The notes below the pieces were generated by a model. The model saw nothing but the letters and a program-made list of their open reading frames with translations. It had not been told where the DNA came from and did not search any database. The position numbers and the translations under genes were made by a program. A DNA stretch of 64,000 nucleotides from Verrucomicrobia bacterium LW23 (GTDB lineage: Bacteria > Verrucomicrobiota > Verrucomicrobiia > Methylacidiphilales > UBA1321): positions 755,956-819,955 of the forward strand of contig QAZA01000045.1 of assembly GCA_003054695.1 (NCBI GenBank). The letters run 5' to 3'. Positions 9,726 to 62,296 of this stretch are shown one piece after another; the stretch's first letter is position 1; the number at the start of each line of letters is the position of its first letter.

Positions 9726-9781
9726 ATCATTTTGCCGGGTGAGGATGAAAAATCCGCAGCGTGCCGCAGGAACGCAACAGC

Positions 9782-29541: not shown

Positions 29542-29931
29542 CGCTAAATCAGGGTCAAGGCGGCGGTAGAGGGAGGGAAGGAAAGGCCGTGCGGATGGCG
29601 CCGGCAGGCCGCGAGTGGCCGCGGGTATTGCGATGGATGACACGTTTTTCCAGGTAAATCGTGCATGAATCGTCGGCGATGAAAAGCCTTTCTGTTACGC
29701 GACCGCTGCCTTTGTATGCCAAACCCACGGCCAAGCGCAAGCGGCGCCTGCCGCAAAATGGCGGTTCCCCCACTTATCCCCCCCTTTGCATCCGTTTGCG
29801 TCCTTTGCGTAAGTCAGCACTATAGCGGTTTCAGCAAAAGTACAATCAGATGAGAGCCACAGGCCAATATTCGTTCGCGGCCCCGGCGCTTCGGAGCATT
29901 TGGCGTTGCGTGCACCTTTACTGAAGACGCT
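29542..29931. other. 390-base gap with a single repeat half
   Basis: Between two minus-strand genes. About 29782-29815 it contains the string CCTTTGCATCCGTTTGCGTCCTTTGCGT, shown here only in parts: CCGTTTGCGTCCTTTGCGT resembles one arm of the CCCTTCGCG-type palindrome, without a partner arm. Nothing else recognised; probably holds the promoter of the HEAT-repeat gene. Confidence 0.4.
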
Positions 29932-30906
29932 CTATGCCCGGCCCAGCGCCTTTAGCAGGGTGCGGCGCATGATGTCGAGCGGGGGTGTCTGGCCTGTCCA
30001 GATGGCGAAGCTGGCGGCCCCCTGGTGGAGGAGCATGCTGAGGCCGTTGGCGGTGCGGCAGCCGGCGCTGCGGGCCTCCTGAAGCAGGCGGGTGGGGTCG
30101 GGCTTGTAGATGGTGTCGTAAACGAGTAGGTGCGGTTGCAGCACGCGGGCGGGGAGGACGGGGGCGTCCCAGGCTTTAAGGCCTACGGAGGTGGCGTTGA
30201 CGATGAGGTCGACCTGGTTGATCTCCTCGGCGATGCGCGCCTCCTCCCACGGCAGGGCAACCAGGCGGTCGCTCGGGCCCATCAGCGAGGTGCGCTCGAA
30301 CGCGGGCTGCAGGTAGTCGGCCAGCTCCACCACGCGCTCGTGCGTGCGGTTGACGAGGATGAGGCGCTCGCAGCGCTCCATGGCGGCCTGGATGGCCAGG
30401 GCGCGACCGGCGCCGCCGGCGCCCAGGATCATGATGCGCAGGTCCCGCACGTCGGCCTGAAACTCCTCGCGAATGGCTTTGACCCAGCCTTCCCCGTCGG
30501 TGTTGAAGCCGATGAGGCGGCCGTTGTCGTTCAGCACGGTGTTGACGCCCTGCAACTTGCGCGCGCTGTCGGTCAGCTCGTCCACTGCGTCGCGCATGGA
30601 GCCTTTGTGGGGAAGCGTGACGTTCCAACCGGTAAGGCCGGCGTTCTTCAGCCCGGCTACCGCCTCGGCAAAGCGCTCGGGGGGAATCTCCACGCGCACG
30701 TAGCGGGCAGATATCTTCAGCGCGTCAAACGCCGCCTGCTGAAAACCGGGGGAGAGGGAGTGGCGCACGGGCCAGCCCAGCACCGCAAACCGCTGGGCCG
30801 CCTTGCCGCCGCCCGCAGCGGGAAGGGAGGCAAGCTCGGCGAGCTCGTCCACGGTGTAAACCTCGCGCGGGGCGCCCAGAAAGTCGGCCGGTGCTGTGTC
30901 GGACAT
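29932..30906 (-). CDS. aroE: shikimate dehydrogenase
   Basis: NADPH-dependent reduction of 3-dehydroshikimate to shikimate in aromatic amino-acid synthesis. 324 residues; the core begins near residue 42 with VLGWPVRHSLSPGFQQAAF (the HSxSP substrate site), then NVTLPHKGSM with the catalytic Lys, and GFNTDGEGW with the substrate Asp. The Rossmann NADP site is ILGAGGAGRALAIQA, then LVNRTHERV, and LHQGAASFAIWTG near the end carries the conserved Gln. A 40-residue N-terminal extension is unusual but lacks an export signal. Start 30906 fits the preceding pyrimidine-rich leader; the upstream ATG at 31038 would add Arg-rich sequence. No other aro gene is nearby. Confidence 0.93.
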   Translation of the reverse strand: MSDTAPADFLGAPREVYTVDELAELASLPAAGGGKAAQRFAVLGWPVRHSLSPGFQQAAFDALKISARYVRVEIPPERFAEAVAGLKNAGLTGWNVTLPHKGSMRDAVDELTDSARKLQGVNTVLNDNGRLIGFNTDGEGWVKAIREEFQADVRDLRIMILGAGGAGRALAIQAAMERCERLILVNRTHERVVELADYLQPAFERTSLMGPSDRLVALPWEEARIAEEINQVDLIVNATSVGLKAWDAPVLPARVLQPHLLVYDTIYKPDPTRLLQEARSAGCRTANGLSMLLHQGAASFAIWTGQTPPLDIMRRTLLKALGRA

Positions 30907-48395: not shown

Positions 48396-49040
48396 ATGCC
48401 CCCCGCCAAACCCGCCCCCTACTCGCCCCCGGACAACAAGCCGCGCTGCACATGGTGTGTGAGCGAAGAGATCTACCTACGCTACCACGACGACGAGTGG
48501 GGCCGGCCCGTGCACGACGACCGGCTGCTCTTCGAGTTCCTCATCCTGGAAAGCTTTCAGGCCGGGCTAAGCTGGATCACCATCCTCAAAAAGCGCGAGA
48601 ACTTCCGCCGCGCCTTCCACAACTTTGAGGCGGAGAAGGTGGCGTTGTTTGACGACGCAAAGATTGAGGAACTGATGCAGGACGCCGGCATCGTACGCAA
48701 CCGCCTCAAAATCGTGGCCGCCATCAACAACGCGCGCCTTTATCTGGAGATACAGAAGGAGTTCGGCTCCTTCGACAAATACGTGTGGAGCTTTGTCGGC
48801 GGCGCGCCCGTCATCAACGATCGCCCCGCGCACACCTCCATCCCCGCCTTCACGCCGCAGTCCGACGCCATGAGCAAGGACATGGGCAAACGCGGTTTCA
48901 AGTTCCGCGGCACCACCATCTGCTACGCCTTCATGCAGGCCGTGGGGATGGTGGACGACCACCTGAACAGCTGCTGGTGCAAGACAGGGACGGCTAAGGA
49001 GAAGGTCTCTTTAGCGCCGAAGGCGCGGAACATCTCGTAG
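48396..49040 (+). CDS. tag: DNA-3-methyladenine glycosylase I
   Basis: 214-residue base-excision enzyme that removes 3-methyladenine. Motifs: RCTWCVSEEIYLRYHDDEWG (the zinc ligand Cys and the active-site HDxEWG), FEFLILESFQAGLSWITIL (the ExxQAGLSW base pocket), KIVAAINNARLYLEIQKEFG, and the C-terminal HLNSCWC supplying the remaining zinc His/Cys ligands. Start 48396 begins just ahead of the conserved core. The last ten codons (SLAPKARNIS) and the TAG stop lie inside the outer arm of the palindromic repeat at 49015, so the natural 3' end has probably been replaced; the zinc site remains intact. Confidence 0.93.
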   Translation: MPPAKPAPYSPPDNKPRCTWCVSEEIYLRYHDDEWGRPVHDDRLLFEFLILESFQAGLSWITILKKRENFRRAFHNFEAEKVALFDDAKIEELMQDAGIVRNRLKIVAAINNARLYLEIQKEFGSFDKYVWSFVGGAPVINDRPAHTSIPAFTPQSDAMSKDMGKRGFKFRGTTICYAFMQAVGMVDDHLNSCWCKTGTAKEKVSLAPKARNIS

Positions 49041-49225
49041 CCCAGGGTAAGGTCCGCCGCAGCCCTGGGGTTAAGGTGCCTCTGAATCGCGTCCTGAAGG
49101 GACGCCCTGTTCTCAGGCTGACCGTTGGGGCGTCCCTTCAGGACGCATTTCTTTCCCGTCATAACCCAGGGCTGCGGCAGACCTTACCCTGGGCTACGAG
49201 ATGTATCTCGCCTTTGGCGCTTCAG
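49015..49225. repeat. large nested intergenic palindrome (copy H1)
   Basis: Outer arms 49015-49072 and 49163-49225 are imperfect reverse complements over about 60 bases (exact stretches include CATCTCGTAGCCCAGGGTAA). Nested inside is a perfect 19-bp pair: GCGTCCTGAAGGGACGCCC at 49089-49107 and its reverse complement at 49128-49146. It lies between convergent genes; the left arm reaches into the 3' end of tag. Modules recur at 61190-61285 (copy H3). Confidence 0.9.
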
Positions 49226-49248
49226 AAGTTGGGCCTCCATACTCGCGT

Positions 49249-50388: not shown

Positions 50389-50779
50389 GCCCCGTCAGTA
50401 CACGTGCGCGGGCGGCCCGGCGTCAAGCATTCTTGGGGGAAGGGGGAGTATTTAACCACGAAGCACACGAAGCACACGAAATTTACGGAGGGGACGAAAG
50501 GGAGGGGTATGAAGGGTATGGATTCCGTTTTTGCTTTATCCCCACTTAGCGGCTTTGTCCCCCTTCGTGCGAAAACTTTCCCCATCTTCTCCGCCGCGTT
50601 TTGAAAGGGGAGTTCTCTCGCTAAGGGGGATAAAGACGCTAAGTGGGGATAATGGGGGACGCGGGGAAGCGGACACAAACACCATAATCCATTCCACTCC
50701 TCCGCTTTCCCCTTTCGTCCCCTCCGTAGATTTCGTGTGGTTCGTGTGCTTCGTGGTTAAAAGACTCCCCCCTGCCTTC
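50389..50779. repeat. 391-base gap filled by nested palindromes (copy F)
   Basis: Outer arms 50451-50500 and about 50710-50762 are reverse complements over some 50 bases with few mismatches; they begin/end with TTTAACCACGAAGCACACGA and GTGTGCTTCGTGGTTAAAA, so the GTGGTTAA end points outwards here, the reverse of copies A and E. A second palindrome lies inside: left arm about 50535-50583 (CTTAGCGGCTTTGTCCCCCT), right arm about 50593-50652. The inner one shares 23 identical bases with copy G at 62160. Nothing coding in the gap. Confidence 0.85.
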
Positions 50780-58918: not shown

Positions 58919-59596
58919 TTATGCGGGCGCCTCCGCCGCCGGGGCAAGGGCGCGCGCCAGGTCCGGCGCAAGCTCCGGGTGGCCGCCCAGGGCGGCGCTC
59001 ACTAGGGAGCGCACGCGGGCGTCGTCGAGGAGCCGCGCCTTATCGTTCCAGGTGATTATGCGGTCCCGGTACAGGGCGGCCAGGGCGGCGTTACCCAGCA
59101 CGGCGTCGAGGCTGCGGGCGGCGGGCGCGCCCGCGTCCGCGGCGGCGGGCGTGATGGTGGCGCAGCCGACGCCGGAGAGCGGCCAGTCCCGGGCCAGGGC
59201 ATGGAGCAGGGGGAGGAACGGGTCGTCCTCAGCCAGTTTGGCGGCGATGCGCAGCACGTCGGGCAGGTAGCGCAGCGTCAGGTCCACACTATATATGGTG
59301 GCGGGCAGCTCCGGCGGGCACGGGCAGGGCTCGCGCATGGCGGGGGCGATGATGTCCATGTCGAGCTCGCGCGCGTGGAGGAACTGGCAGGCGCGGTACA
59401 GGAGGGCCGCCGCCCACACCGCCGCTTTAACGTCCAGCGGCGGCGCGGTGCCGGGGCAGTTGGCGCGCGCAAAAAAATCCATGTCCTCCACAATCCGCTC
59501 GGCGTCCGCATCGCGCGCCGGGGTGGCGAAGAAGCCCGTGCCGACGCGGGCGACGCCACGTTCCAGCAGGATGGTGAGAAAGGAAGCGAGTTCCAT
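58919..59596 (-). CDS. hypothetical helical protein
   Basis: 225 residues, mostly helical, Ala/Leu-rich and soluble (no signal or membrane segment). Pieces: FLTILLERGVARVGTGFF, LDVKAAVWAAALLYRACQFL, a Cys-Pro pair REPCPCPPEL, and LTLRYLPDVLRIAAKLAEDD. I do not recognise a family. It sits upstream of the vWA-like gene on the same strand (397-base gap). Composition and codon pattern match neighbours, so it is probably a gene. Confidence 0.6.
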   Translation of the reverse strand: MELASFLTILLERGVARVGTGFFATPARDADAERIVEDMDFFARANCPGTAPPLDVKAAVWAAALLYRACQFLHARELDMDIIAPAMREPCPCPPELPATIYSVDLTLRYLPDVLRIAAKLAEDDPFLPLLHALARDWPLSGVGCATITPAAADAGAPAARSLDAVLGNAALAALYRDRIITWNDKARLLDDARVRSLVSAALGGHPELAPDLARALAPAAEAPA

Positions 59597-59959
59597 GCCA
59601 CAATGCTACACATGAAATCTGAGAACCTCAAAGAGGTTCTATATCCTAGCCCGGGGTTCCCCGAGTTCAGCGAGGGAACCCTGGGAAAGAAGTGACCTCT
59701 GTACAACCCCAGCGCGGGTTGTATCCCTTTGCATAACAGCGGGATACGACCCACGTTGGGGTCGGTCCCTGCCTCCTCCTCTCCCAGGGTTCCCTCGCTG
59801 TACTCGGGGAACCCTGGGCTATGTTATACAACCTCTTCGAGGTAGTAGGATGAGGCTGCTTTCACTTGCGCTTCATCCGCTCTAGGCGGGGATCGCGGGC
59901 GAGGGAAGGCGCAAAATGCATGGTGCACGTCGGGCGGGCGGGGCTATAGTGACGCCGAG
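59597..59959. repeat. 363-base divergent gap dominated by a nested palindrome (copy H2)
   Basis: Outer arms 59621-59690 and 59777-59846 are reverse complements over about 65 bases with a handful of mismatches (AGCCCAGGGTTCCCCGAG-type core). Inside is a smaller palindrome, ACCCCAGCGCGGGTTGTATC at 59706 paired with GGGATACGACCCACGTTGGG near 59740. The remaining sequence before the ATG at 59960 shows no Shine-Dalgarno sequence. The left half reappears at 61077 (copy H3). Confidence 0.88.
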
Positions 59960-60850
59960 ATGACAACCCACCTGTCCGCGATGACTGACTCTGTGCAACT
60001 TCCAACGCAAGTGCCTTATTACGAGAGCGATAAGGGGCTTTCCGAGTACTTGCTGTTTCACTACGGCACGGAGGAGCAGCTGCTGCCGGAGTTTGCCCGC
60101 GAGTTTGCGCCGCCGGGCGCGCTGGAGTATCCGGCCCGTTGCGTGCATCAGCTGCTGTCGCAGGCCCTGGATGCCGGCGCTGCACTGGCGCCCGATGGCA
60201 GGGGCCGCGCCCTGGACCTGGGCTGCGCAGTGGGTCGCAGCACGCTGGAGCTGACGTGCTGGTGCGAGGAGGTGATCGGCATCGACTACTCCCAACGCTT
60301 TGTGGATGCCGCCGAGCAGATGCGGCGCGACGGCGAGATGGGGGGAGCGATTGCGGTGGAAGGAGATGTGTATGAATACGCAACGTTTGTCTCTCCCGGC
60401 AGGCTCCCCTCATTCCCCGCCGGCCACGGCAGGCAGGAGGTGGCCGGAGTGCCCATTGCCCCGCAACGCGCCCGGTTTATGCGCGGCGACGCCCAGGAGC
60501 TTCCGCTGGAGGAGCTGGGCACCTTCGATATCGTGTTGATGGCCAACCTGATCGACCGCCTGGCCGATCCCCGCCGCTGCCTGGCGCAGATGCCCGCGCT
60601 CGTTCGCCCGGGCGGCCTGCTTCTCATCACCAGCCCCTACACGTGGCTGCAGGAGTACACGCCGAGCGCCAACTGGCTGCAAGCCGGCGCCCCGCAATCC
60701 CCCCCCAGCACGCTAGGGGGCCTGCACACCGCGCTGGATCCCCACTTCACGCTCCTCACCACCGCCAATCTCCCCTTCCTCATCCGCGAGCACGCCCGCA
60801 AATACCAGTGGTCCATCGCCCACGGCACGGTGTGGAAGCGGCGTGGCTAG
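59960..60850 (+). CDS. putative 4-mercaptohistidine N1-methyltransferase (OvoA C-terminal-like)
   Basis: 296-residue SAM-dependent methyltransferase. The N terminus YYESDKGLSEYLLFHYG is the characteristic start of the OvoA C-terminal family that methylates 4-mercaptohistidine in ovothiol synthesis. Class I motifs follow: ALDLGCAVGRSTLEL (SAM-binding motif I), EEVIGIDYSQRFVDAA, then FDIVLMANLIDRLADPRRCL and LLITSPYTWL. In ovothiol producers this domain is commonly fused to the sulfoxide synthase; here it is separate, and the synthase is not within the window. Convergent with the O-methyltransferase gene. Alternative start ATG at 59981. Confidence 0.82.
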   Translation: MTTHLSAMTDSVQLPTQVPYYESDKGLSEYLLFHYGTEEQLLPEFAREFAPPGALEYPARCVHQLLSQALDAGAALAPDGRGRALDLGCAVGRSTLELTCWCEEVIGIDYSQRFVDAAEQMRRDGEMGGAIAVEGDVYEYATFVSPGRLPSFPAGHGRQEVAGVPIAPQRARFMRGDAQELPLEELGTFDIVLMANLIDRLADPRRCLAQMPALVRPGGLLLITSPYTWLQEYTPSANWLQAGAPQSPPSTLGGLHTALDPHFTLLTTANLPFLIREHARKYQWSIAHGTVWKRRG

Positions 60851-61315
60851 TGTTGCAGCAAGGATCTATTTTAGGAAGGTTGAACATCGTGGAAGCAACC
60901 CTCTTGGCGAAACTTTCCGCCCTTGGCGATGTTATCTGAAGGTCCGTAGATCCAAGGCGGATAGTATCGCCAAGGACGGAAAGTTTCGCCAAGGGAATCC
61001 AGCGGAAATGTCGACTGCTCTAGTGAATCGGCAAAGATCTATATTGGGATTAGACGTGCATGGACCGGGAATGTCCGAGAACCTCGAAGAGGTTCTATAA
61101 CCTAGCCCAGGGTTCCCCGAGCGAAGCGAGAGAACCCTGGGTAAGCGGCAGTTTCAGATCAACCCCAACGCGGGTTGTATCCCTCTGGTCTGAAGCGCCA
61201 GAGGCGCGAAAGCATATAGCCCAGGGCGTAAGCCCTGGGGGGAGGAGTCCCAAAGGAACCGCGTCCTGCGGGGACGCAACAGCCATTGCCTGGCGATGTT
61301 GCGTTTCTGCAGAAC
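60851..61315. repeat. 465-base convergent gap with two palindromic repeats (copies C2 and H3)
   Basis: C2: arms 60903-60930 and 60966-60993 are reverse complements with one mismatch (CTTGGCGAAACTTTCCG) and share the flank GCGGAAATGTCGAC with C1 at 25132. H3: 61077-61145 equals the left half of H2 (59621), and 61160-61187 equals the H2 inner arm; from 61190 the sequence continues with modules of H1 (GCGCCAGAGGCGCG, AGCCCAGGGCGTAAGCCCTG, GCGTCCTGCGGGGACGC). H3 is therefore a mosaic of half of H2 and half of H1. No gene in the gap. Confidence 0.88.
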
Positions 61316-62105: not shown

Positions 62106-62155
62106 CATCGCGTACTCCTCAACGTATGACCATGGGGATACACCTCGTCCCCCCT

Positions 62156-62262
62156 CCCCCTTAGCGGCTTTGTCCCCCTTCGCGTGAAAAACTCCCCTTC
62201 TGTCCCCTGAGAAAGGCTTACGGATTATTTCACGCGAAGGGGGACAAAGCCGTTAAGGGGAA
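62156..62262. repeat. intergenic palindrome, TTAGCGGCTTTGTCC family (copy G)
   Basis: Arms 62156-62189 and 62228-62262 are reverse complements over about 33 bases with two mismatches; the loop is 38 bases. It shares CTTAGCGGCTTTGTCCCCCT (and 3 more bases) with the inner part of copy F at 50545. It sits in the 318-base gap (61979-62296) after dnaX, downstream of the candidate RNA. No ORF. Confidence 0.85.
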
Positions 62263-62296
62263 GCGGATGCCTGGATGCGGTAGGCAGCCAGCCAGG

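Follow-up and report, generated by a model that had tools for sequence, protein, structure and literature searches.

Three large palindromes, H1, H2 and H3, lie within the window analysed here, a 64,000-nt stretch of the genome of Verrucomicrobia bacterium LW23, and share hairpin modules that are not arranged in the same order. This raises the question of what these units are and how their modules were shuffled. A first-pass annotation of the window considered them a non-autonomous family without a coded transposase, moved or rearranged by recombination, and named no described family that matches. We interpret H1, H2 and both parts of H3 as non-autonomous remains of IS200-like (HUH, single-tyrosine) transposons with three-hairpin ends that are mixed with TA-inserting units, a reading to which we assign a probability of roughly 0.78.

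H1 (49008-49226) and H2 (59618-59850) are symmetric nested palindromes, whereas H3 is composed of two left halves in tandem. The arms of H1 (49008-49069 and 49165-49226) span 62 nt with 89% complementarity and those of H2 (59625-59692 and 59776-59843) 68 nt with 88%, in line with the value of about 90% over 60-70 bases given initially. When folded as single-strand DNA and compared to 200 dinucleotide shuffles each, H1, H2 and H3 reach z-scores of -18.1, -12.4 and -6.4, respectively, and 0/200 shuffles fold as well as any of the three; the nested palindromes are real and have many relatives in the genome. Each arm of H1 and H2 displays a short outer hairpin (h1), a TAG tag followed by a larger hairpin (h2) of the form CCCAGGG...CCCTGGG, and a short inner hairpin (h3). 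In the left arm of H1, these correspond to GCGCCGAAGGCGC (h1, 49014-49026), a GTAG tag with h2 (49037-49069), which occur in the same order at the C50 ends described below, and GCGTCCTGAAGGGACGC (h3, 49089-49105, with a mirror copy at 49130-49146). In the left arm of H2, h1 (59623-59639) is followed by a CTAG tag with h2 (59646-59685) and by h3 (59704-59721). The first base of the tag varies between the families, namely GTAG in F1 (H1-type units), CTAG in F2 (H2-type units) and ATAG in F3 (a third family, present in H3), and TAG is common to all. Outside the TC(C/T)GA foot of h1, the flanks of the units are mostly unconserved. H1 and H3 are located between convergent genes, and H2 is flanked by the starts of two divergent genes. 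The reading frame that precedes H1 has its stop codon in the TAG of the GTAG tag (49037-49040), and H1 appears to supply the end of this frame.

Dozens of copies of these modules, with matches far above the level of chance, were found elsewhere in the genome. The best other copy of H2 has an E-value of 1e-68, and its 79 strand matches at E ≤ 0.01 correspond to roughly 45 places, as palindromes match on both strands; the identity of H2 to other F2 units amounts to 82-85%. For H1, the best other copy has an E-value of 4e-67 among 30 strand matches, and other full F1 units are present on C16, C11, C23 and C45 (L037, L038, L041 and L043). Neither H1 nor H2 was detected in the 59 relatives searched, hence there is no orthologous empty site among them. 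The initial interpretation is supported in part: the proposal of a non-autonomous family with shuffled modules and without a transposase at the H1-H3 loci is right, and the opposite outcome, modules unique to this window, does not apply.

The left part of H3 (61020-61187, plus strand) is the left half of an F2 composite unit, comprising a CTAG terminus, a terminal inverted repeat (TIR) and an F2 end that is cut in the loop. It displays 94% identity over 168 nt to composite L176, and in composite copy L015 the F2 end is identical to it at 112/112 positions. Homology to composite copies already starts at 61020, which moves the beginning of H3 upstream of the 61077 annotated before. The right part (61189-61315, plus strand) consists of an F3 left end followed by a portion of the right inner hairpin, and breaks off where the next gene has its stop codon. 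It shows 86% identity over 127 nt to full F3 copy L195 and 96% over 47 nt to the end of the C25 transposon, compared with 80% over 41 nt for the H1 family. H3 had been described as the left half of H2 followed by the left half of H1: the first half indeed belongs to the H2 family (F2), and the second half is, judged by these alignments, assigned to F3, the family of the C25 transposon ends, which follows the same module plan as H1 and yet is distinct from it. H3 is a nest, in which half an F2 composite is joined to half an F3 unit.

Five Y1_Tnp matches are present in the genome, and two of these genes stand within palindrome ends. The tnpA gene of C50 (L096) is flanked by 101-bp inverted repeats of H1 type and that of C25 (L097) by 88-bp inverted repeats of F3 type. 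The halves of H1 match the C50 end with 89% identity over 93 nt and 82% over 101 nt, and both ends of H1 are common to the C50 element that encodes tnpA. Since the inverted repeats surrounding the C50 gene are H1 halves, H1 reads as the C50 transposon minus its gene, with a left end, a short spacer and an inverted right end. No F2-type tnpA was found in this assembly (95.4% complete) and the F2 ends have no clear partner among all sampled tnpA ends, so that H2, despite having the same plan, does not share its ends with any transposase-encoding element of this assembly or of the sampled loci; its TnpA may be lost or unassembled, the enzyme of C50 or C25 may cross-mobilize it, or a DDE enzyme may have spread it. 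The claim that no transposase is coded holds at the palindrome loci, but genes with matching ends for H1 (C50) and the right half of H3 (C25) are located elsewhere in the genome. The Y1 genes of C3 and C31 were also considered as sources and were rejected, as no H-type ends were seen around either of them on inspection; the C3 gene is IS200-like according to the model. The C31 locus (L099, G000:C31) is a small contig of 6778 bases with two IS200-like genes, one of which is broken by a stop codon, and other transposase-like frames.

The C50 and C25 proteins are about 150 aa long, are 53% identical to each other and match Pfam Y1_Tnp with intact HUH and Y motifs. The C25 protein scores above the cutoff of the NCBIfam IS200 model and the C50 protein just below it, and neither matches the model for REP-associated transposases (NF047646). 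Their PDB matches are the TnpA proteins of ISDra2 and ISHp608. When both genes were aligned with 15 relatives (length about 148 aa), the columns of the motifs DH[IV]H, WQ and YIxNQxxHH proved to be invariant or nearly so, and no NP follows the catalytic tyrosine in either protein. These motifs have been listed for subclass 1.2 in the Quentin-type classification of TnpA-Y1 (PMC6006769), and by their motifs the C50 and C25 proteins fit this subclass. Members of subclass 1.2 are reported to be generally without terminal structures, to have no insertion sequence properties and to occur mostly in Cyanobacteria and Bacteroidetes (PMC6006769). Both genes studied here have three-hairpin inverted ends and thus deviate from the reported absence of REP-like ends, which is not a necessary trait of the subclass. 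The first-pass annotation had suggested searching the genome for a RAYT-type (Y1_Tnp) transposase; this was the right place to look, but the genes encountered are of the IS200-like subclass 1.2 and not REP-associated.

The association of tnpA with such ends extends beyond this genome. A scan for related tnpA genes, which covered 84,980 species with a single genome each, yielded 50 loci from many phyla, and many of these possess terminal inverted repeats with the plan h1, (T)AG-h2, h3, such as L116 (Sumerlaeia), L119 and L120 (Verrucomicrobiota), L126 (Pirellula) and L134 (Planctomycetes). Within the class to which the window belongs, 129/384 genomes carry the tnpA gene. Terminal inverted repeats well above shuffles, mostly arranged as h1, AG-h2, h3, were detected at 24 of 29 related class loci, a count that is slightly low at worst, since for L269, which is among the five negatives, the scoring used an incorrect gene position.

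Contrary to the initial impression that no described family matches, part of H3 corresponds to Rfam family RF01687 (Acido-Lenti-1), which was originally listed from comparative genomics (PMC2864571) and is filed by Rfam as sRNA. The h2 and h1 hairpins of the F3 end in the right half of H3 (61194-61239, minus strand) score 53.5 bits against a gathering score of 37, and H1 (31.0) and H2 (24.0) remain under this cutoff; 41 matches are present in the genome. The C25 tnpA gene is flanked by RF01687 on both sides, on the minus strand upstream and on the plus strand downstream. RF01687 stands beside tnpA in one fixed orientation at nine loci, the C25 locus included. Three others show it on both sides, namely G145:C155 (match at 59143 on the minus strand, gene at 59246-59695 on the plus strand, match at 59770 on the plus strand), L121 and L126, and five on one side, namely L135 (a Lentisphaerae genome), L262, G069:C65, G242:C5 and G079:C39. 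Exceptions are L133, with an upstream match in the other orientation, and L256 and L266, where the matches are further off and in the other orientation. Back-to-back RF01687 pairs without a gene, about 150 bp apart, occur at 10 of 20 loci of other genomes. No tnpA was found beside the best RF01687 locus at any of 29 loci from other genomes with a profile that recovers all 54 known positives; the RF01687 copies at these loci are gene-less. Across the class, RF01687 is present in 119 of the 384 genomes, tnpA in 129 and both in 95 (Fisher P 7e-38, uncorrected for kinship). From the flanking of tnpA, the gene-less pairs and the co-occurrence, the reading follows that RF01687 would represent a portion of a transposon end, with gene-less units making up most of its copies.

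Next to the hairpins, a second layer of structure was identified. Many F2 copies are located inside a larger unit, about 330 bp long, that is bounded by CTAG termini and carries the TIRs GGCAARGATCTATTTTAGGATTA. The printed stretches of these composites, flank included, form a size series of 366, 337, 249, 233, 179 and 160 nt in which the palindrome interior is partly lost, as expected for deletion within long inverted repeats. At the filled site L175, the CTAG that separates h1 from h2 in an F2-type palindrome holds a composite; once this composite is taken out together with one TA, the F2-type palindrome is continuous again. This TA-type insertion is the only event with direct evidence and it speaks for a DDE enzyme at that site; together with the CTAG termini of many copies, it gives the composites both the TIRs and the TA duplication of IS630/Tc1-like MITEs. 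Outside many F3 and some F2 copies, a different outer arm, CTAGAGCGGTTTCAATACG, is present, and an IS630/Tc1-like element of C38 with a DDE_3 gene has this arm at one of its ends. For the DDE element with the AGCGGTTTCAATACG arm, one end is matched and the C38 element is truncated; no DDE element with a GGCAARGATC arm was found. Composite copies without any F2 hairpin, which would represent the empty state of the host unit, were not seen. F1 units, including H1, lack both outer arms. A scan of the window with a matrix built from 33 arms revealed that H2 keeps a weak trace of the outer arm found on F3 copies (CTAGAGCGG...) on its right (59853-59885, minus strand; rank 9 of 127,934 window positions) and none on its left. 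The solo end of another composite unit is located at 60846-60876 (minus strand, 90% over 31 nt).

Taken together, the following mechanism is proposed. Each transposon end comprises three hairpins, of which the outer one is short and has a TC(C/T)GA foot, the second is the large TAG-tagged CCCAGGG hairpin and the inner one is again short, and an H1-like unit joins a left end to an inverted right end and lacks tnpA. TnpA-REP and IS608 TnpA recognize tagged hairpins on single-stranded DNA (PMC8266576). By homology, the TnpA of the present system most likely recognizes the tagged hairpins in the same single-stranded form and cuts beside them, and it probably moved the short gene-less units in trans, like the TnpA of IS200/IS605 elements. 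Some F2 and F3 units would have gained, or landed inside, the outer arms of TA-inserting IS630/Tc1-like elements. The resulting composites would spread by insertion at CTAG and, since the F2 palindromes carry this sequence themselves, palindromes would end up within palindromes; the shorter versions would stem from loss of the middle of long palindromes. The best explanation for the module shuffling combines specific routes, namely the pairing of left and right ends, nested insertion of TA-targeting composites that enter the CTAG of older palindromes, and internal palindrome collapse. The second outcome named initially as contrary, modules that belong to a known insertion sequence with terminal repeats, applies by half.

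It could be argued that all units are IS630/Tc1-like DDE MITEs, for which double-strand cut-and-paste transposition at TA would be the mode of movement and the hairpins passive cargo. The CTAG termini and TIRs of the composites, the TA duplication at the filled site and the identity of the CTAGAGCGGTTTCAATACG arm on many F3 and some F2 units to an end of the C38 element with its DDE_3 gene agree with this. As an explanation for the units throughout, we nevertheless consider it unlikely: H1-type units lack these arms, both the C50 and C25 tnpA genes lie between H1- or F3-type ends without arms, the three-hairpin ends follow tnpA across phyla, and the search for a DDE element with the GGCAARGATC arm yielded none.

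Two further explanations have very little probability. Units kept for function as RNA genes or transcribed regulatory hairpins, rather than by mobility, would be in accordance with the sRNA label and comparative genomics origin of RF01687 (PMC2864571) and with the position of H1 and H3 between convergent genes, where a role at the 3' end is plausible. However, RF01687 is one of the paired inverted ends around tnpA and also forms gene-less pairs, with 41 matches in this genome; the same covariation is expected from selection for DNA hairpins read by TnpA, and H1 and H2 are missing from the 59 relatives. Mobilization by a RAYT (TnpA-REP), with the units as canonical REP/BIME elements, is equally improbable. 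Inverted pairs of TAG-tagged hairpins, a single-copy Y1 gene inside such a pair and many gene-less copies do resemble REPtrons and REPINs, but the cognate proteins lack a match to the NCBI REP-associated model and have YIxNQ where the TnpA-REP classes show YIxxNP, each end has three hairpins, and the first base of the TAG tag is variable, although F1 has the GTAG of REP/RAYT systems.

The units are REPIN- or MITE-like gene-less derivatives of IS200-like transposons that have unusual three-hairpin ends and are in addition mixed with TA-inserting units. As in REPINs/BIMEs and REPtrons (PMC3116915, PMC2817692, PMC3733652), tagged hairpins form inverted pairs that contain no gene and are related to Y1 transposase gene ends, but the present units are larger (about 220 bp), with three hairpins per end and an IS200-like rather than a RAYT protein. 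TIRtrons (TIRYT), which occur in Acidobacteria and others, likewise have a Y1 transposase that is flanked by long terminal inverted repeats, in part double-palindromic and in some cases repeated in the genome (PMC3733652). Published TIRYT proteins mostly belong to subclass 2.1 with extra HTH domains, which the C50 and C25 proteins do not have. Class 3 TnpA-Y1 combine atypical structures, a CnGA foot and a high copy number in Solibacter (PMC6006769), to be compared with the TC(C/T)GA foot of h1, whereas their motifs NHVH, W[TA] and Y----Q differ from those found here. Subclass 1.2 as published (PMC6006769) agrees in protein length, motifs and low copy number; the present system differs from it by three-hairpin inverted ends, many gene-less derivatives and occurrence in other phyla. 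The F3 end in H3 and 41 places in the genome match Acido-Lenti-1 (PMC2864571), which is filed as sRNA but here forms the outer part of a transposon end. IS630/Tc1-like MITEs have the CTAG termini, TIRs and TA duplication of the composites, but the interior of a composite is an IS200-like three-hairpin palindrome and H1 is devoid of arms.

A wider hypothesis, for which we estimate the odds to be about even, is that subclass 1.2 TnpA is the enzyme of a widespread three-hairpin mobile system in several phyla, that Acido-Lenti-1 is its DNA end and not an RNA gene, and that these ends have here merged with TA-inserting DDE ends into palindromes movable by two unrelated mechanisms. With the main reading proposed above, unexplained palindromes become a testable mobile system, an 'sRNA' family of 119 of the 384 sampled class genomes is offered a meaning as transposon end, and subclass 1.2 TnpA gains a candidate DNA substrate. 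The L175 site provides a concrete route for domain shuffling, with palindromes that insert into each other's CTAG. The link between RF01687, subclass 1.2 TnpA and three-hairpin ends is the point likeliest to interest specialists.

Additionally, several other repeats were observed in the window. Relaxed-threshold matches to microRNA families were discarded, as they score far under the gathering scores and are generic long-hairpin matches. A further repeated palindrome (TTGGCGAAACTTTCCG...CGGAAAGTTTCGCCAAG, 60892-60993), situated between H3 and the solo end of a composite, is 98% identical to a copy beside L012 and occurs in 17 fetched loci of the genome, some of which overlap. Long inverted repeats at 50441-50770 and 62151-62266 (CCACGAAGCACACGAAG... 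and CCCCTTAGCGGCTTTGTCCCCCTTCG...) are about 72% alike, are also present in 10-14 other fetched loci of the genome and constitute a separate palindrome family. A short degenerate inverted pair at 29820-29935, with CTAGAGCGGTTTCA-type arms and remnants of the F3 outer hairpin, is probably a collapsed F3 composite. Finally, an isolated 40-nt match at 9739-9778 shows 87% identity to the inner part of an F3 unit.
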